Source of the DNA: Candidatus Nanopelagicaceae bacterium
Lineage (GTDB): Bacteria; Actinomycetota; Actinomycetes; Nanopelagicales; Nanopelagicaceae
Direction: 5' to 3'
Length of the DNA stretch: 64,000 bases
NCBI GenBank assembly: GCA_009694285.1
Contig: SHVK01000006.1
Span: 1 to 64,000 of the forward strand
The number at the start of each line of letters is the position of its first letter. Position 1 is the stretch's first letter. Positions 1-6,765 of the stretch are shown here, one piece after another. A program made the position numbers and the translations under genes. Below the pieces are notes generated by a model. That model saw only the letters and a list, made by a program, of their open reading frames with translations. It was not told the origin of the DNA and made no database searches.

Positions 1-74
1 GCACCTGCAGTAGCAGGAGTTAAAAGCGCTCCGACTAAGGCGATCAGTGATGCAGCGATTGTGAATTTTTTCAC
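1..74 (-). CDS. N-terminal fragment of an exported protein (possibly a phosphate-binding PstS)
   Basis: Only the first 24 codons lie in the window. Reading leftwards from a GTG at 74, the peptide starts VKKFTIAASLIALVGALL, with two lysines, a hydrophobic core and an Ala-rich region, which is a typical signal peptide. A strong Shine-Dalgarno (GGAGG, minus strand, 81-85) fixes the start. The gene lies downstream of glnR on the same strand. In mycobacteria phosphate-transport genes lie near glnR, so a PstS-like protein is possible, but nothing beyond the signal peptide can be seen. Confidence 0.6.
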   Translation of the reverse strand, partial: MKKFTIAASLIALVGALLTPATAG

Positions 75-80
75 TTAGAT

Positions 81-85
81 CCTCC
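81..85 (-). promoter_or_regulatory. Ribosome binding site of the left-edge gene
   Basis: GGAGG on the minus strand lies 6 nt before the GTG at 74 and decides this start. The upstream region (86-241) has a 6-bp inverted repeat, ATAGAT at 115-120 and ATCTAT at 126-131. No Pho box is convincing. Confidence 0.6.
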
Positions 86-241
86 AAGGATTAGTTTTGT
101 ATCTGAGCAACAAAATAGATTGATTATCTATACCGCTTGCTCAATAACCGCAGATTTTACTCCCATTTAGGCTAAAAGGCTCTAGCCGAAGGTAGGGTAA
201 ACCCAATTCAAATCACCTAAAAAACCGTTATTTAATACGAG

Positions 242-958
242 TTAGTGCTCAGATAGGGCAGCGACCCCTTGATTCTGGCTATTTGGAGTATTGAATCTGT
301 ATCCCACGTGGCGCACTGTGCCGATCAGCGCTTCGTGTTCTGGACCTAATTTTGCCCGCAGACGCCGGATGTGAACATCGACAGTTCGAGTGCCGCCGAA
401 ATAGTCATATCCCCAAACTTCTTGCAACAATTGAGAGCGAGTAAAAACACGCCCTGGATGTTGGACTAAATATTTTAGAAGTTCAAACTCTTTGTAAGTT
501 AAATCAAGCGATCGTCCTTTTATTTTTGCAGTGTATGAGTGTTCATCAATTGTAATTTCACCGCCGCGAATTTCGATAGTTGCTGGATTAACTACACGTT
601 GCAAATCCAAAAACTTCATAATTGCAAGGCGAATTCGAGCATCTACTTCGGCAGGTCCAGCCGTATCAAGAATTACATCATCAATTGCCCAATCAGCGGC
701 AATGGCAGCAAGGCCACCTTCAGTAGTTACCAAAATAATTGGTGCGCCAACGCCAGTGGTATTAAGTAACCGGGTTAAATTTTTTACTGCACCTAAATCA
801 CGACGTCCATCAATAATTAACAAATCAATTGAGGGGGCATCCAGCAGAACACTTACTTCAGCCGGCAGTATTTTCACTTGGTGTTGCAATAAGGACAAAG
901 AGGGAAGCACTTCGGCGCTGCTATTGCGCGAATTAGTAAGCATCAGCAATTTAGCCAT
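242..958 (-). CDS. glnR: GlnR-like atypical OmpR-family regulator of nitrogen metabolism
   Basis: The protein has 238 residues: an N-terminal receiver-like domain (about 1-115) and a C-terminal winged helix (about 130-225) with the OmpR pattern [12 protein letters not shown] and [15 protein letters not shown]. The N-terminal segments IIDGRRDL (48-55) and [17 protein letters not shown] resemble Streptomyces GlnR closely. The end of the first receiver strand reads LTNS, so the acidic pair of a phosphorylatable receiver is absent, as in known GlnR proteins, which act without a partner kinase. GlnR controls ammonium assimilation and transport genes in actinomycetes. It is divergent from a thioredoxin-like gene, as in mycobacteria. 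A purine-rich 12-bp tandem repeat precedes its Shine-Dalgarno sequence. Confidence 0.9.
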
Positions 959-969
959 TGATGCTCACC

Positions 970-993
970 TCTTCTTTCTGTTCTTCTTTCTGT
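970..993 (-). repeat. 12-bp tandem repeat in the glnR 5' leader
   Basis: Two exact copies of a 12-bp unit lie at 970-981 and 982-993 (plus strand TCTTCTTTCTGT; minus strand ACAGAAAGAAGA). The repeat ends just before the likely ribosome binding site AGAGGTGAG of glnR, so copy number would change the leader length. Confidence 0.7.
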
Positions 994-1072
994 CGCTGTC
1001 ACAAAGAACCCACTAGTAACGGATGCATAAAGGACCCGGGTTGGCTGCTTCGTCGCAACTTCCAGGTCCTAC

Positions 1073-1516
1073 ATGCGCAACAATACTCCCGTGGACAACC
1101 TGCTGGTACTCATCGCAATTTTGGCCTCGGCCACTGGGTACGGTTTTTACTTTCGGGCTCGCTCTGGCCGGCTGAAAGCCACCACAAAAAAGGGAGCGAC
1201 GGCAGTAATAAGTTGCATAACCCCAGTTGAAATGGGTACTGAATTTGGTTCCGTGGCAACGCTTTTGCAATTTTCATCAGCTTTTTGCGCTCCATGTCGA
1301 GCAACAAAGGTACTTCTAGGCGAGGTAGCAAAAGATCATCCCGGTGTTGTCCATGTAGTGCTAGATGCGGAGTCTCACCTTGAATTAGTTCGCCGGCTAA
1401 AGATTATCTCCACCCCGACTACTTTGATCCTCGACCCAAAGGGCCACGAAGTGGGGCGGGCCGTGGGAGCCCCGAGGCGCGAACAAGTCGCTGCCGCTTT
1501 ACACGCCTTGAGATAG
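1073..1516 (+). CDS. Membrane-anchored thioredoxin-like protein (ThiX-like)
   Basis: This 147-residue protein has one N-terminal membrane segment (about 9-27, LLVLIAILASATGYGFYF) followed by a thioredoxin fold. The redox motif is C72-A-P-C75, and a cis-proline loop reads ISTPTTLIL. The catalytic domain is expected outside the membrane, where it would reduce or oxidise disulfides. Its place between glnR and the DUF4395-sulfurtransferase genes copies the mycobacterial order (Rv0816c-Rv0818 region). No clear Shine-Dalgarno or TAnnnT hexamer sits at the usual distance, so the start is chosen from the length and the signal anchor. Confidence 0.85.
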   Translation: MRNNTPVDNLLVLIAILASATGYGFYFRARSGRLKATTKKGATAVISCITPVEMGTEFGSVATLLQFSSAFCAPCRATKVLLGEVAKDHPGVVHVVLDAESHLELVRRLKIISTPTTLILDPKGHEVGRAVGAPRREQVAAALHALR

Positions 1517-1591
1517 AGCAAATAGGATCGACCAGCAGCAAAGTAGGTAGATGCGACAACTTTGCAAGTGGCTTAATTAAGTGATCAAAAG

Positions 1592-1597
1592 TAAGAT
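1592..1597 (+). promoter_or_regulatory. -10 element of the sulfur-operon leader ORF
   Basis: TAAGAT is followed by 6 nt and then the ATG at 1604. This spacing predicts transcription starting at the A of the start codon, so the leader ORF would be leaderless. No convincing -35 is present. Confidence 0.6.
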
Positions 1598-1603
1598 TCA
1601 CCT

Positions 1604-1690
1604 ATGTTTTCAAAGAGAGATACGCTGACCACACTAACCAAGCGTCGCACCATTGATTATGGTCGCATCTCTACTTCGCTTTGTCGTTAA
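1604..1690 (+). CDS. Leader peptide upstream of the sulfur operon, probable cysteine-responsive attenuator
   Basis: This 28-codon ORF ends in RRTIDYGRISTSLCR followed by a stop. The pattern RRxxDxxRxSxxLCR resembles small actinobacterial leader peptides found upstream of sulfur-assimilation genes (recalled from annotation, not searched here). In mycobacteria, leaderless cysteine-containing ORFs of this kind are known to attenuate downstream genes when cysteine is plentiful. Here a single Cys codon (TGT, 1682-1684) lies two codons before the stop. Translation would start on a leaderless transcript. Downstream lie two overlapping hairpins and a U-tract, then DUF4395, thiosulfate sulfurtransferase and DUF1416. 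Whether the peptide itself has a function cannot be seen. Confidence 0.7.
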   Translation: MFSKRDTLTTLTKRRTIDYGRISTSLCR

Positions 1691-1716
1691 ATCTCCCAAC
1701 ACTTTAAGTGTCGTTT

Positions 1717-1744
1717 GCCCGCGTTAGCGGCTTGCTAATTTTTT
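1717..1744 (+). terminator. Candidate attenuator: mutually exclusive hairpins with U-tract
   Basis: Hairpin A pairs GCC(C)GC with GCGGC around loop GTTA (1717-1731). Hairpin B pairs TTAGC with GCTAA around loop GGCTT (1724-1738) and is followed at once by six T residues (1739-1744). The two share bases 1724-1731, so only one can form. B with its U-tract looks like a weak intrinsic terminator. A smaller stem (ACACT/AGTGT, 1699-1711) precedes them, just after the leader ORF. Confidence 0.45.
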
Positions 1745-1770
1745 ATCCCCCAAATTATTGAAGGAGATTC

Positions 1771-2235
1771 ATGTCAAGTATGTTAAAGGCTTCTGTACAA
1801 ATAGATGCACGTGGTGCACGCTTTGGCGCGTTAATCACCGCAATTGTTTTTTCTGTGGCGTTAGTAACGCAATCACCCGCATTAATCATGTGGCAAGCAG
1901 CAGTTTTTGCAATTGGCGCATTTCGCGGCCCACAATTCACTCCTTATGCAGTTATTTTCCGCTCGGTAGTTAAGCCGCGCTTAAAATCTAATCCAATTTT
2001 TGAAGATGTACGCCCACCGAAATTTGCGCAAGCAGTTGGCTTGGTATTTACCATCATCGCACTAATCGGATCACTTTTAGGTTCTTCAGTTGTCTTCTCT
2101 GTTGCAGTTGCGGCTGCATTAGCGGCAGCATTTTTAAACTTTGCGTTTAATTATTGCTTAGGTTGCCAGTTTTATTTACTAGGAGTTCGTTTAGTTAGTC
2201 CACGTAATTCAAAAATAACTTTGGAGGTTAAATAA
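1771..2235 (+). CDS. DUF4395 membrane protein of the sulfur operon
   Basis: This 154-residue protein has about four hydrophobic segments (roughly 20-50 and 88-130, each able to hold two). Conserved-looking motifs include GARFGALITA and FNYCLGCQFYLLGVRL near the C terminus, with two cysteines in CLGC. It matches the DUF4395 family, found beside thiosulfate sulfurtransferase in actinobacteria (Rv0817c position). The CLGC pair near a membrane edge and the neighbouring thioredoxin-like gene suggest a redox or sulfur-transfer role, but the function is unknown. AAGGAG precedes the ATG by 5 nt. The stop TAA shares its last A with the next ATG. Confidence 0.8.
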   Translation: MSSMLKASVQIDARGARFGALITAIVFSVALVTQSPALIMWQAAVFAIGAFRGPQFTPYAVIFRSVVKPRLKSNPIFEDVRPPKFAQAVGLVFTIIALIGSLLGSSVVFSVAVAAALAAAFLNFAFNYCLGCQFYLLGVRLVSPRNSKITLEVK

Positions 2236-3068
2236 TGTCACGTTCAACTGCATTAGTAACAGCTGATTGGGTTCAAGAAAACTTGTCAAAGCCAAAAGTG
2301 GTTCTTGTTGAAGTTGATGAAGATACCTCTTTATATGAGAAGAACCATATAGAAGGAGCAAGTACATTTCACTGGAGAAACGATCTGCAAGATGGGGTAA
2401 TTCGCGACATCGTTTCTAAAGAGAAGTTTGAACTTCTTCTTTCAAAGCATGGAATCGCAAATGATTCAACAGTTGTGCTTTATGGTGGAAATAACAATTG
2501 GTTTGCAACTTATGCTTATTGGTACTTTAAAGTTTATGGACATGCAGATGTAAGAATCCTTGATGGTGGCCGCAAGAAGTGGGAGTTAGATGGACGTCCG
2601 CTTACTTCAGAAACTCCAACTCGCACCGCTACTCGTTATGTTGCGAAAGAGCGTGATCTTTCAATTCGTGCATTCCGCGACGAAGTAATCAATTCAATCG
2701 GAGTAAAAAATATCGTTGATGTCCGCTCTCCTGCTGAATTTAAAGGTGAATTACTTGCGCCAGCCCATTTACCACAAGAGGGTGGACAGATTGCCGGCCA
2801 CATTCCTAGTGCGAAAAATATTCCGTGGTCACAGGCTGCAAATGATGATGGAACTTTCAAGAGCGATGCAGATCTTCGCTCCCTTTACGCAAACGCAGGT
2901 GTTGATTATGCAAAAGAGACGATCGCTTATTGCCGAATTGGTGAGCGTTCAGCATTTTCATGGTTTGTACTTCATGAACTTCTCGAACTCGGCAATGTTA
3001 AAAATTACGATGGCTCTTGGACTGAATACGGATCACTTGTCGGCGCACCAGTAGAAATTGGCGCATGA
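2235..3068 (+). CDS. cysA2: Thiosulfate sulfurtransferase (two rhodanese domains)
   Basis: The protein has 277 residues and two rhodanese domains. The N-terminal one (about 5-130) has GGNNNW where the active cysteine would be and is presumably inactive. The C-terminal one (about 145-270) carries the catalytic loop Y-C233-RIGERS, characteristic of the mycobacterial CysA2/SseC pair. It would transfer the sulfane sulfur of thiosulfate to a thiophilic acceptor. The start overlaps the DUF4395 stop by one base, with GGAGG upstream inside that gene, so translation is coupled. The stop overlaps the DUF1416 start (ATGA). Confidence 0.9.
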   Translation: MSRSTALVTADWVQENLSKPKVVLVEVDEDTSLYEKNHIEGASTFHWRNDLQDGVIRDIVSKEKFELLLSKHGIANDSTVVLYGGNNNWFATYAYWYFKVYGHADVRILDGGRKKWELDGRPLTSETPTRTATRYVAKERDLSIRAFRDEVINSIGVKNIVDVRSPAEFKGELLAPAHLPQEGGQIAGHIPSAKNIPWSQAANDDGTFKSDADLRSLYANAGVDYAKETIAYCRIGERSAFSWFVLHELLELGNVKNYDGSWTEYGSLVGAPVEIGA

Positions 3069-3388
3069 AAAGTTGCGGAGCAACTCTTGCTGGGGCCGAT
3101 CTTTCCGGGATTGATCTCAGTAAACAGAGCGTGATTCAAGGTGTGGTAATTGCAGAGGGTTCAGGTGATGGCGTTCCAAATGGGATGCCAATCACTGTCG
3201 GCTATGCCCGCTTATTGGATAAAGATGGAGAGTTCACCGCTGAAGTTCCATTGAATGGACAAGGGCAGTTTCGCTTCTTCGCAGCACCCGGCAAATGGAC
3301 CGTTCGGATTTTGGCTCCAGGTGCCACAACTGAACGAGTCGTCCTAGCAGTAGTCGGTACTGCCGTAGATCTTACGATCCCACTCTAG
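3065..3388 (+). CDS. sseC: DUF1416 protein (SseC-like), partner of the sulfurtransferase
   Basis: This 107-residue protein follows the sulfurtransferase with a 4-bp ATGA overlap. The C-terminal part (about 25-107) looks like a small beta-sandwich of the transthyretin or carboxypeptidase-regulatory type (VGYARLLDKDGEFTAEV, FFAAPGKWTVRIL). The N terminus has a Cys (MKSCGA) conserved in SseC-like proteins. Genes of this family sit beside cysA2 in mycobacteria and Streptomyces. The biochemical role is not established. Its stop codon TAG forms the first three bases of the -10 hexamer of fur. Confidence 0.85.
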   Translation: MKSCGATLAGADLSGIDLSKQSVIQGVVIAEGSGDGVPNGMPITVGYARLLDKDGEFTAEVPLNGQGQFRFFAAPGKWTVRILAPGATTERVVLAVVGTAVDLTIPL

Positions 3389-3391
3389 GCT
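3386..3391 (+). promoter_or_regulatory. -10 element of fur, overlapping a stop codon
   Basis: TAGGCT begins with the stop codon of the DUF1416 gene and ends 6 nt before the fur ATG, predicting a leaderless mRNA. Confidence 0.6.
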
Positions 3392-3397
3392 TAGGGC

Positions 3398-3805
3398 ATG
3401 CCAGATGAATTGCGCGATCGAGGATTGCGCTTAACCCCTCAACGCGAATTAGTTCTCGCCGCAGTGCGCGAATTAGGTCATGCCAATCCAGAAGAGATTG
3501 CAGAGATGGTTCGCTTAAAACATCCTGGAATTAATCTTTCAACTGTTTATCGAAATCTTGAAACCCTTGAAAATGTCGGCTTAGTAATCCATTCACATTT
3601 GGGTCATGGTGGAGCCACATATCACGCAGCCGATGACATAAATCATTTGCATTTAGTTTGCGGAAAATGTGGTTCAGTTGGTGAAGCTCCAATTGAAACA
3701 GCAGCACAATTTGTAAACACTATTGCTGATGATTACAGTTTCAAAACAGATGTAACCCACTTTGCAATACATGGAACTTGTGCACGTTGTCTTGAAACGC
3801 TATAA
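3398..3805 (+). CDS. fur: Fur-family metal-dependent repressor
   Basis: This 135-residue protein has the usual Fur length. A winged helix (about 10-75) contains the recognition segment INLSTVYRNLETLENVGLV. The C-terminal domain has two CxxC pairs (C88/C91 and C128/C131) for structural zinc, and histidines (HLHLVC) in the regulatory site. The metal specificity (iron, zinc or other) cannot be decided from the sequence. In mycobacteria a Fur-family gene is not adjacent to this sulfur operon in the same way, though similar arrangements exist in other actinobacteria. ygfZ starts 2 bp after the stop. Confidence 0.9.
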   Translation: MPDELRDRGLRLTPQRELVLAAVRELGHANPEEIAEMVRLKHPGINLSTVYRNLETLENVGLVIHSHLGHGGATYHAADDINHLHLVCGKCGSVGEAPIETAAQFVNTIADDYSFKTDVTHFAIHGTCARCLETL

Positions 3806-3807
3806 AA

Positions 3808-4716
3808 ATGTCTGCTGTTTTAAATGAAGAAGGTCCTGACAAAGGCGCAGTCTGGCATTTTGGTGAACCAAACAAAGAACAGAAAGCTTTAGAGGCCGGA
3901 AAAGCTTGGGCAGATTTATCACACTTACCCGCGCTGGCAATCACTGGTGCTGATCGTTTAACTTGGCTGCATGCCTTAACCACTCAACATTTAGAAAAAT
4001 TACAACCGGGTGATTGGCAATCTGCACTTATTCTCGATTCAAAAGGCCACATCGAGGAACAATTTGTACTTGTTGATGATGGCCAAATAACTTGGTTATT
4101 TACGGAAAGTGCGCGCGTATCGATATTAGAAAAGTATTTAAACTCAATGAAATTCATGTTGCGAGTTGAAGTTAGAGATGCAAGTACTGAAGTGGCTTTA
4201 CTCCGTGCACCAGGTGTAGAAAATGAAATTGGTGGACCTTACGCACTCGTTCCGCGATCAGAGCTTGCCCAAATGATCGAGACTTTTAATACAACTTCAA
4301 TGCAAGTGGGAAGTTGGGCACTTGATGCAATGCGCGTTGCATCTGGCCGTCCAAGATTAGGGTTCGATACCGATGCCAAAGCAATTCCGAATGAATTAGG
4401 AATGTTAAATAAGTCGGTACATATGAAAAAAGGTTGTTACAGAGGACAGGAAACTATTGCCAAAATTGCAAACCTCGGCAAACCACCAAGGCGATTAACG
4501 ATGCTGCATTTAGATGGCTCAGGAGTTAGCCTTCCAAATCCAAATAGTCCAATTATTTATAACGAAAAAGAGGTTGGGTATTTAGGGACAGTTGCTCGAC
4601 ATCATGAACTAGGAACAATTGCACTTGCAGTTATAAAACGCGCAATTCCGGCTGATGCAATTCTTACCGTTGATGGGATCCCAGCATCACAAGAGTTGAT
4701 CGTTCCAGCAGAGTAG
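3808..4716 (+). CDS. ygfZ: Folate-binding YgfZ-family protein for Fe-S cluster maintenance
   Basis: The protein has 302 residues. The family signature KGCYRGQE lies at about residue 208. The N-terminal part (WLHALTTQHLEKLQPGDWQSALILDSKGHI) matches the GcvT-like folate-binding fold. YgfZ/IBA57 proteins use tetrahydrofolate to help repair or mature certain Fe-S enzymes in the cytosol. It forms a probable transcription unit with fur. A possible 24-codon membrane peptide follows 11 bp downstream. Confidence 0.9.
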   Translation: MSAVLNEEGPDKGAVWHFGEPNKEQKALEAGKAWADLSHLPALAITGADRLTWLHALTTQHLEKLQPGDWQSALILDSKGHIEEQFVLVDDGQITWLFTESARVSILEKYLNSMKFMLRVEVRDASTEVALLRAPGVENEIGGPYALVPRSELAQMIETFNTTSMQVGSWALDAMRVASGRPRLGFDTDAKAIPNELGMLNKSVHMKKGCYRGQETIAKIANLGKPPRRLTMLHLDGSGVSLPNPNSPIIYNEKEVGYLGTVARHHELGTIALAVIKRAIPADAILTVDGIPASQELIVPAE

Positions 4717-4727
4717 ATCGGAAAATT

Positions 4728-4802
4728 ATGCAGACACTTTCGCAATATTTTATAGTAGTTGTAGCTGCAGTAGTAATTATGGTTGTGTTAAAAAAACTTT
4801 AA
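4728..4802 (+). CDS. Possible 24-residue single-pass membrane peptide
   Basis: A short ORF after ygfZ encodes MQTLSQYFIVVVAAVVIM and ends VVLKKL. A single hydrophobic helix with a basic C terminus is a plausible small membrane protein. The upstream CGGAAAA is a weak ribosome binding site. The stop overlaps the stop of the convergent DsrE-like gene. Only conservation in relatives would establish it. Confidence 0.35.
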   Translation: MQTLSQYFIVVVAAVVIMVVLKKL

Positions 4803-5164
4803 TAAACAAGGGCTTGGATATCAGGCTCAATAATTTCAGCCAAAAACGATGCAGCACCAGCGATCTTTATGCCGTCAATTAAATCTTTTTCATTAATTCC
4901 TCTGCGCACTGCACATTGAGTACATAAAGTAACTTTCCCACCCGCAATTATGGCGGCCAATAAATCAGCCAGTGGCGCTGCATGTGGCAAATCGAATTCT
5001 TGTGCTTTACCAGGGAGTGCGAACCAAGATGCTTCGCCAGTTAGCCAAAGTGATGTTGAAATACCTGATGCGACTGCAGTTGCTGCAACTGTGAATGCTT
5101 GTGCACATCTTTCGGCATCATCAATTCCGGCGATGCATTTAATTACTAATCCCCGTTGTGCCAT
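4799..5164 (-). CDS. DsrE/DsrF-like small sulfur-related protein
   Basis: The 121-residue protein has the DsrE-like fold pattern: an N-terminal strand, an ALPGKAQEFDLP loop, then GGKVTLCTQCAVRRGI with C81 and C84. In DsrE/TusD proteins a cysteine in this region carries persulfide in sulfur relay, but many DsrE-like proteins have unknown functions. It lies next to the sulfur operon block, which suits a sulfur role. A leaderless promoter (TAGATT, 6 nt from the ATG) precedes it. Confidence 0.75.
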   Translation of the reverse strand: MAQRGLVIKCIAGIDDAERCAQAFTVAATAVASGISTSLWLTGEASWFALPGKAQEFDLPHAAPLADLLAAIIAGGKVTLCTQCAVRRGINEKDLIDGIKIAGAASFLAEIIEPDIQALVY

Positions 5165-5170
5165 GAGGTA

Positions 5171-5176
5171 AATCTA
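5171..5176 (-). promoter_or_regulatory. -10 element of the DsrE-like gene
   Basis: TAGATT on the minus strand ends 6 nt before the ATG at 5164, so the mRNA is predicted to be leaderless. Confidence 0.6.
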
Positions 5177-5188
5177 CTCTGATGGCTC

Positions 5189-5194
5189 TAGGCT
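5189..5194 (+). promoter_or_regulatory. -10 element of the small membrane ORF at 5203
   Basis: TAGGCT ends 8 nt before the ATG at 5203, consistent with a leaderless or nearly leaderless mRNA and with choosing this ATG over the in-frame ATG at 5182. Confidence 0.4.
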
Positions 5195-5202
5195 GTGCCA
5201 AT

Positions 5203-5313
5203 ATGGAGTTGATTTTTGCAGCCATCATTGTTGCAGCTGCAGCCTTTATTGCACTTTTTCTTGTGGGACAGTCAAGTAAAGGGCTCCGCTCTTTTTTACG
5301 TAATAAGAAGTAG
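5203..5313 (+). CDS. Possible 36-residue single-pass membrane protein
   Basis: The ORF encodes MELIFAAIIVAAAAFIALFL, followed by a basic tail ending SFLRNKK. One transmembrane helix and a positively charged C terminus suggest an N-out or tail-anchored micro-protein. An in-frame ATG at 5182 would add seven residues (MALGCAN), but the -10 hexamer at 5189-5194 would then lie inside the gene. It ends 13 bp before the nitrobindin-like gene and could be its operon partner. Confidence 0.45.
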   Translation: MELIFAAIIVAAAAFIALFLVGQSSKGLRSFLRNKK

Positions 5314-5326
5314 GGGGATTGGCTAA

Positions 5327-5830
5327 ATGAGAACTTTTTCAATTCCAGAAGGTTTGCATCCGGAGTTAAATCCGCTGGCTTGGCTTGTTGGGACTTGGCG
5401 GGGAAAAGGTCAAGGGGAGTATCCAAATATCGAGAACTTTCAATTTGCTCATGAAGTCACTTTTAATCATGATGGCCGGCCTTTTCTTTCCTACTTTTCG
5501 CGCTCATGGTTAATTGATGATGACGACGAAATAATTGCTCCTGCCGCACAAGAAACTGGTTTTTGGCGGATAAAACCTAATAATGTTTTAGAGGTAGTAA
5601 TTTCGCATAGCACTGGAATATCTGAAGGTTGGGTCGGTCGATACGACGGTCCAAAAATTCAATTAGTAATGGATCAGGGATATAGCTCACCAACTGCAAA
5701 AGTTGTGACCGCAGGAGCACGCTTGTATGGATTAGTCGAAGGCGAACTTTTCTTTGCTTATGACATGGCTGCAGAGGGCCAAACTTTGCAAGCACATATC
5801 TGGTCAACTCTTCCACGAGTTATAGAGTAA
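5327..5830 (+). CDS. Nitrobindin-like heme-binding beta-barrel protein
   Basis: This 167-residue protein starts with LHPELNPLAWLVGTWRGKGQGEYP, which carries the GxWxGxG signature of the nitrobindin/THAP4-like (FABP-like) family. The C-terminal LQAHIWSTLPR contains the likely heme-ligating histidine. Family members bind heme b and can act on nitric oxide or peroxynitrite. The actinobacterial role is not settled. A GGGGGAUU-like ribosome binding site precedes the ATG. Asparaginase follows 17 bp downstream. Confidence 0.8.
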   Translation: MRTFSIPEGLHPELNPLAWLVGTWRGKGQGEYPNIENFQFAHEVTFNHDGRPFLSYFSRSWLIDDDDEIIAPAAQETGFWRIKPNNVLEVVISHSTGISEGWVGRYDGPKIQLVMDQGYSSPTAKVVTAGARLYGLVEGELFFAYDMAAEGQTLQAHIWSTLPRVIE

Positions 5831-5847
5831 TCGAGGAATCGAGAATA

Positions 5848-6765
5848 ATGCCAGCAGCCCTTGCTGAAGTAATTAGAAATGAAATGGTGGAGTCAGTTCA
5901 TTATGGTCACCTAGTTTTACTAAATGCCAAAGGCGAAATTCAATTAGCAGTTGGTGATATTAACTTGCCGATTTTTCCGCGTTCATGTGTCAAGCCTTTA
6001 CAAGCACGAGCGATGGTTAAAGCAGGGTTAAATTTAGCACCAAAATTATTAGCATTAGTTACCGCAAGTCATTCGGGATCTGAAACGCATATCGAAATAG
6101 TGCGTCGAATTTTAAAGAGTGCTGGATTAGATGAATCAGCATTGCAGTGCGCATTAGATAAGCCAATTGGTGAAGTCGAACGCAAAAAATGGGGAGATGC
6201 GCCAGCAACTCGAATTGCCATGAACTGCAGTGGAAAGCATGCTGGAATGTTGGCAACATCTATTGCCAACAATTGGCCGATTGAAAATTATCTAGCAATG
6301 GATCATCCATTACAGAAACTCATACTTAGCGAAATCGAAAGTGCAGCTAGTGAAAAAAGTATCAATAAAACTTTTGATGGATGTGGAGCGCCTTTGTTTG
6401 CAATTTCAACTATTGGATTAGCCCGAGCAATTCAAGATGTAACCCTTGCTGACGATTCGGCTTCAACTCAAATTCGAAACGCAATGCGCGAATATCCCGA
6501 ATTGGTGTCAGGGGTTGGCCGATTGACGCAACGATGGATGAGTCTGATCCCAGGACTTCTTATAAAGGAAGGTGCCGAGGGGGTGCAAATCGCATCTCTT
6601 GCTGATGGCCGAACGCTGGCTTTCAAAATTTCCGATGGAGGTTTTCGCCCCTTTTCAGTAATAACGGCTGCCGCTTTGGCGCATTTTGGGGTTAAAGCCC
6701 CTGATGAGAGCGTAAGTGTCTTCGGTGGTGGAGCGCCAGTAGGGTCAATTCGCGCCACTTTTTGA
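5848..6765 (+). CDS. L-asparaginase II family protein
   Basis: The 305-residue protein matches the actinobacterial and rhizobial asparaginase II family. It has the early segment VESVHYGHLVLLNAKGE, SCVKPLQARAMVKAG, TASHSGSETHIEIVRRIL and the internal MNCSGKHAGML, all hallmarks of this family. It would hydrolyse L-asparagine to aspartate and ammonia in the cytosol. GAGGAATCGAG upstream of the ATG serves as ribosome binding site. DUF2516 follows with its own -10 hexamer. Confidence 0.88.
   Translation: MPAALAEVIRNEMVESVHYGHLVLLNAKGEIQLAVGDINLPIFPRSCVKPLQARAMVKAGLNLAPKLLALVTASHSGSETHIEIVRRILKSAGLDESALQCALDKPIGEVERKKWGDAPATRIAMNCSGKHAGMLATSIANNWPIENYLAMDHPLQKLILSEIESAASEKSINKTFDGCGAPLFAISTIGLARAIQDVTLADDSASTQIRNAMREYPELVSGVGRLTQRWMSLIPGLLIKEGAEGVQIASLADGRTLAFKISDGGFRPFSVITAAALAHFGVKAPDESVSVFGGGAPVGSIRATF

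Follow-up and report, generated by a model that had tools for sequence, protein, structure and literature searches.

The locus raises the question of how a short open reading frame (ORF) with a single cysteine codon just before its stop might control the sulfurtransferase operon behind it, and whether such a control would act on transcription or on translation. We analyzed a stretch of 64,000 nucleotides of a Candidatus Nanopelagicaceae bacterium—referred to as the window—whose genome assembly comprises 1.28 Mb and is 86% complete. The initial annotation had described a TAAGAT element, a 6-nt gap, a 28-codon ORF ending in RISTSLCR, an AAGGAG sequence, and the DUF4395, sulfurtransferase, and DUF1416 genes, all of which are present where it had put them. 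The features needed in the following are:

1552–1571, plus strand: tandem TGCRA/TTGCAA box TGCGACAACTTTGCAAGTGG, a candidate activator site, second half 42 nt before the leader start
1592–1597, plus strand: −10 promoter element TAAGAT, 6 nt (TCACCT) ahead of the ATG; TAnnnT in relatives
1604–1690, plus strand: leader ORF of 28 amino acids, MFSKRDTLTTLTKRRTIDYGRISTSLCR, with an RRxxDxxR motif and a Cys at +6 from the last motif Arg, recognized by conservation
1682–1684, plus strand: sole Cys codon TGT, followed by CGT and TAA; predicted stalling site, register kept in 157 of 159 distinct leaders
1690–1696, plus strand: 5′ arm of stem P0, AATCTCC (anti-ribosome-binding-site), at and just past the leader stop codon; pairs with 1763–1769 in the minimum free energy (MFE) fold
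1699–1711, plus strand: P1 hairpin ACACT-TTA-AGTGT within the P0 junction; ACAATC...GATTGT at the same place in the sister genus
1717–1731, plus strand: P2 hairpin GCC(C)GC-GTTA-GCGGC within the P0 junction, kept in seven loci of two genera
1723–1744, plus strand: alternative hairpin GTTAGC-GGCTT-GCTAAT (1723–1739) with six T (1739–1744), probably not functional
1761–1769, plus strand: Shine-Dalgarno (SD) sequence AAGGAG (1761–1766) and 3′ arm of P0, GGAGATT (1763–1769), paired in the MFE fold
1771–2235, plus strand: DUF4395 membrane protein gene, first of the putatively controlled operon (Pfam PF14340, E 2.6e-39)
2235–3068, plus strand: tandem-rhodanese sulfurtransferase gene, CysA2-like (Pfam PF00581)
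3065–3388, plus strand: DUF1416 gene, SseC-like (Pfam PF07210, E 9.7e-29)

The nearest named relatives of the sulfurtransferase belong to Candidatus Planktophila and other freshwater actinobacteria, and identities to named actinomycete relatives reach up to 81%. A thioredoxin-like gene (1073–1516) adjoins the leader on its upstream side. The resulting order of thioredoxin, leader, sulfurtransferase, and DUF1416 is similar to the mycobacterial order thiX-cysA2-sseC. DUF4395 matches in G078, G096, and some others (L014 and L022) contain in-frame stop codons, which suggests gene decay in some relatives; in the loci L014 and L022, the leader is missing too.

Predicted leaderless start and distribution of the leader

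The initial annotation had taken the ORF starting with the ATG at 1604 for a leaderless, Cys-containing leader peptide. The relatives bear this out: the ORF is kept, and TAnnnT precedes the ATG or GTG by 6 to 7 nt in 65 of 66 leaders (four of Mycobacteriaceae-type included)—with the −10 box itself used as a criterion where the start codon had to be chosen among several candidates, and with one or few candidates in most leaders. Because the −10 element sits 6 nt before the start codon, the leader transcript is predicted to be leaderless. Its putative transcription start would thereby resemble that of the mycobacterial polycysteine attenuators. Upstream of the leader start, the sequence T[CT]GCAANTNG is found in 54 of 64 loci, in 53 of these at −42/−43, at a background of about 0.11 per kb; the tandem form of the TGCRA-TTGCAANTNG box occurs once in the genome. 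This box is likely a shared activator site of sulfur leaders.

Conservation of the ORF ending in relatives had been named by the initial annotation as a check on its reading, and the leader with its −10 box is indeed kept across the family. DUF4395 is present in 96 of the 151 genomes of this family, and the upstream regions of about 90 DUF4395 loci divide into 62 with a clear leader, of consensus FTKRRVLDFGRLAGSLCRM, and about 27 without a recognizable one. With a profile of 24 leaders, searched at E up to 0.01 per genome, so that a few matches may be chance, homologues turn up in 118 of the order's 151 genomes and, class-wide, in 236 of 297; 86 of 115 genera are represented. Among named Actinomycetes—Streptomyces, Nonomuraea, Nocardia, Mycolicibacterium, Micromonospora, and others—the leader lies upstream of the sulfurtransferase in 78 of 80 loci.

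No second leader copy was found in the bacterium's own 1.28-Mb, 86% complete assembly. Other copies stand ahead of genes for cysteine synthase, exported rhodanese, DUF4395, or sulfurtransferase. Within the same family, second copies precede cysteine synthase genes (L246, L247, L249, L255, L256, L258, L259, L263, and L265) and mostly read W[LFY]FTRRR[VI]IDFGR, with one to three Cys behind it; the TGCRA-TTGCAANTNG box is present ahead of cysteine synthase leaders too (e.g., L246, L247, and L249). In L248 and L257, short leaders of about 19 to 20 amino acids stand ahead of a sulfurtransferase that has a rhodanese domain and an N terminus resembling a signal peptide. The genus g2 (L105, L107, L109, and L110) bears the tail RAKGCMCW or RAKGWMCW, in which the Cys is followed by Trp and often preceded by another Cys two residues before it. 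One locus of the window's own genus (L004) has a truncated leader, whose end is joined to the sequence ahead of the T tract; about 50 nt are gone, and with them both the +6 Cys and the arm for pairing, be it by a real deletion or by an assembly error.

A peptide motif in fixed register with the cysteine

In all fetched loci, we searched for leaderless ORFs whose C-terminal part contains R[RHQ]xxDxxR, without demanding a Cys, which gave 159 distinct peptides. All of them carry a Cys after the motif, and in 157 it lies exactly six residues past the last motif Arg; the set was partly fetched with the leader profile and is not fully independent, and loci fetched by DUF4395 or by sulfurtransferase show the same register. 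The exceptions are L004, where the allele is truncated, and L265, where the Cys is shifted. Most of the peptides have a single tail Cys (111 of 159), and an Arg directly follows the +6 Cys in 107 of the 157 leaders. N terminus and length are variable.

The invariant Arg residues of the motif use up to five codons each, and this synonymous variation implies that selection acts on the peptide and not on the RNA alone. Within the motif, pS amounts to 0.64 and pN to 0.22; pN of the four preceding codons is 0.52. Hence, the suspicion of the initial annotation that a single Cys leaves room for a nascent-peptide mechanism has gained ground with the fixed register and the synonymous changes at the Arg residues. 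Like arrest peptides, the leader has conserved nascent-chain residues in fixed register with a predicted stall codon.

Pairing of the leader end with the ribosome-binding site

In the MFE fold of the window region, the sequence at 1690–1696 pairs with 1763–1769 and encloses the hairpins 1699–1711 and 1717–1731. The compensatory pairing to which the initial annotation had looked is found in part: the arms of P0 change in concert and one pair of P2 varies, but the T-tract hairpin is mismatched or missing in congeners. For P0, the same-genus loci L003 and L005 show TAATTCTTC or TAATTCTTT against GGAGAATTA. For P2, seven loci of two genera give the consensus GCC(C)GC-GTNA-GYGGC, with one pair changing between G-C, G-U, and A-U. 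The consensus fold of the P1–P2 region supports four P2 pairs only, one of them with a compensatory change; the P1 hairpin was not recovered by this automatic fold. In other genera, a CATTCGACA-like sequence just ahead of the SD pairs with TGTCGAATG, the codons for Cys-Arg-Met; the partner of the Cys codons in loci of Mycobacteriaceae type is CAGCAACA, ahead of the SD.

For a comparison across genera, the last five leader codons with the stop and 12 further nucleotides were paired with the region from SD-20 to the start codon, either natively or with partners swapped between genera, and the mean of genus means was taken. The native pairing reaches −14.1 kcal/mol versus −9.05 kcal/mol for swapped partners and is better in 14 of 14 genera (p = 0.00012). 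No native-versus-swapped effect appears when the same region is paired with control segments, namely the leader's opening 30 nt, the codons of the motif, two segments from upstream, and three from DUF4395 downstream. With the narrower region from SD-3 to start+12 as the only partner, the leader end shows no significant effect, and one control against this region (the leader's opening 30 nt) gives p = 0.025. The ribosome-binding site costs 10.5 kcal/mol to open with native leaders and 8.2 kcal/mol with swapped ones (p = 0.003); placing a ribosome so that its A site holds the Cys codon reduces this cost by 3.9 and 1.5 kcal/mol, respectively (p = 0.011). At the window locus itself, the cost falls from 13.6 to 7.7 kcal/mol with a ribosome on the Cys codon, compared with 8.5 to 8.0 kcal/mol for swapped leaders. 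In silico, the leader region would hence sequester the downstream ribosome-binding site and a stalled ribosome would relieve this, as in the polycysteine attenuators. A ribosome positioned in this way would, by its assumed footprint, cover the 5′ arm only partly, and in some genera, the stem stops just ahead of the SD and leaves it uncovered.

Compared with dinucleotide shuffles, the mean pairing probability of the SD shows no excess (0.68 versus 0.67), probably since a leader rich in pyrimidines will pair with a purine-rich SD in any case; the stability of the window fold is likewise unremarkable against shuffles (z −0.64). Since these shuffle tests are negative, support for the pairing comes from the native-versus-swapped comparisons.

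Probable translational attenuation and its alternatives

We consider it probable that the sulfur leader attenuates translation in response to cysteine, as a homologue of mycobacterial Ms5788A with one Cys only and a conserved motif in its nascent peptide. RNA polymerase would start at or next to the leader ATG, and a ribosome would translate the 28-codon peptide without an SD sequence, as the −10 spacing suggests. With ample Cys-tRNA, this ribosome would complete the leader and depart, whereupon AATCTCC (1690–1696) could pair with GGAGATT (1763–1769) and shut the ribosome-binding site of DUF4395, the two small hairpins being held in the junction. With scarce Cys-tRNA, the ribosome would pause at the single Cys codon, mask part of the 5′ arm, and open the ribosome-binding site, so that DUF4395, sulfurtransferase, and DUF1416 would be produced. 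The pause is probably reinforced by the RRxxDxxR motif of the nascent peptide, whose distance to the Cys is fixed, so that one codon might be enough. From the sequence, we infer that transcription is leaderless, that the ribosome stalls at the Cys codon, that the signal is cysteine, and that control acts on the initiation of translation.

The initial annotation had instead proposed an intrinsic transcriptional attenuator, in which a choice between terminator and antiterminator hairpins decides on readthrough. The two mutually exclusive hairpins that it had seen do exist (1717–1731 and 1723–1739, with the common segment 1723–1731), and the latter, GTTAGC/GCTAAT, runs into TTTTTT. Yet this hairpin is not kept within the genus, having a C-A mismatch in L003 and being missing in L005. 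A standard terminator scan calls none at its thresholds, this hairpin included, and a laxer scan finds terminator-like sites in 4 of 64 spacers versus 3.0 expected by shuffling; the T-tract hairpin is no more than chance. Terminator choice at 1723–1744 has thus become highly improbable, and the evidence points to translational attenuation by sequestration of the ribosome-binding site. A trp-type attenuator was rejected on the same ground, as no conserved terminator hairpin with a U-tract follows the leader. Transcription could also be attenuated through Rho, if untranslated RNA past the leader exposed a Rho site unless a ribosome stalls or the next gene is translated. Such a mechanism was proposed for terminator-less mycobacterial cys leaders (PMC1262725), and an intrinsic terminator is absent here as well; but that study itself grades its prediction as weak, the spacers of 44 to 122 nt give little room for a Rho site, and a conserved pairing to the ribosome-binding region would not be predicted. 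We regard Rho as quite improbable.

A different division of labor would be that of a true arrest peptide, in which the RRxxDxxR chain by itself brings the ribosome to a halt on the Cys codon or past it and acts on the same downstream ribosome-binding site. The signal would then come from a small molecule, be it free cysteine, sulfide, or a different sulfur metabolite, or from a tRNA or release step, as for TnaC with tryptophan. The invariance of RR, D, R, and Cys at fixed spacing despite synonymous codon change, the prevalence of single-Cys leaders, and the frequent Arg after the Cys would all suit it, and so would the motif's distance of 6 to 13 residues before the Cys, which is within the tunnel reach of arrest peptides. 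The stalling is predicted, however, and the Cys at the stall position is never replaced, save for the truncated allele and the one shifted case; moreover, mycobacterial homologues carry Cys runs at the same register, which fits the sensing of Cys-tRNA. A true arrest peptide of this kind is unlikely in our view. Strong amino-acid conservation might equally be expected of a small protein working in trans, for example, a Cys-thiol peptide, with no regulation in cis. However, the leader always heads sulfur operons, is leaderless by its −10 spacing, pairs by its 3′ end to the downstream ribosome-binding site, and varies in N terminus and length, which renders a trans function extremely improbable. 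A further reading, possible although somewhat doubtful, is that the RR-x2-D-x2-R-x5-C leader represents a class-wide actinobacterial arrest peptide, whose nascent-chain-assisted stall at a single Cys senses cysteine supply, and that the mycobacterial polycysteine leaders are derived from it by Cys codons added at the same register.

Relation to known leader peptides

In mycobacteria, ribosome profiling shows occupancy of a small ORF ahead of cysA2 in which Cys codons are clustered (PMC4633059), and ORFs of the polycysteine class in M. smegmatis are cysteine-dependent attenuators according to Canestrari 2020 as related in PMC9031893 and PMC13236596. The initial annotation had named such mycobacterial leaders together with annotated actinomycete leader peptides of the RRxxDxxR...CR pattern, and both relationships are recovered, each below the curated cut-off. 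The window peptide matches NF042933, the Ms5788A family of Cys-rich leaders, with 22.2 bits (E 8.1e-5; cut-off 45 bits), so that it is, by sequence, a homologue of this family outside the curated NF042933. It shares with Ms5788A-type attenuators the peptide (KRRxVDxCRVxG then Cys), the predicted leaderless start, the position upstream of a cysA2/sulfurtransferase operon (with DUF4395 in related loci), and the putative pairing of the leader end to the downstream ribosome-binding site. Unlike these, it has one Cys codon in place of a run—as do the tails of most relatives—and Gly for the Cys of DxCR, and is known here from sequence. Against NF042934 (cis_reg_atten), it scores 13 bits (cut-off 27 bits), with the 19-residue RRxxDxxR...C domain matching end to end; 13 of 24 aligned relatives match this model, which names a "putative leader peptide" of actinomycetes and states no mechanism. 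None of 4227 Rfam models matched positions 1–6000 of the window up to E = 1.

The predicted leader peptides of actinobacterial cys operons (PMC1262725) likewise stand ahead of sulfur genes without conserved terminators, but have Cys runs and a weakly suggested Rho-dependent termination; pairing to the ribosome-binding site and a fixed Cys register are not described there. Lyubetsky et al. 2014 (cited in PMC4833913) tie the regulation of PF14340 (DUF4395) to sulfur metabolism in their title. With TnaC/SecM-type arrest peptides, the leader shares conserved nascent-chain residues at a fixed distance from the presumed stall codon, but its sequence is unrelated and its arrest putative. With trp-type transcription attenuators, it shares a leader peptide that holds the regulatory amino acid, but lacks their conserved terminator.

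Implications

Elements of this kind are known. To them, the present analysis adds a form in which a single Cys keeps a fixed register to an invariant motif, the spread of this form across the class, and the native pairing to the ribosome-binding site; the literature consulted yielded no description of these features, although they may have been reported elsewhere. Cys runs account for the cases with experimental evidence; in the leaders assembled here, the majority have a single Cys at a fixed distance behind an invariant RRxxDxxR. In our reading, the leader would act on translation rather than on transcription, and it is short enough for direct testing. If the peptide belongs to the sensor, Actinomycetes, with Streptomyces, Nocardia, and mycobacteria among them, would share a widespread arrest peptide that senses an amino acid. 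Sulfur regulation of this type would also extend to the streamlined freshwater bacteria of the Nanopelagicaceae type.
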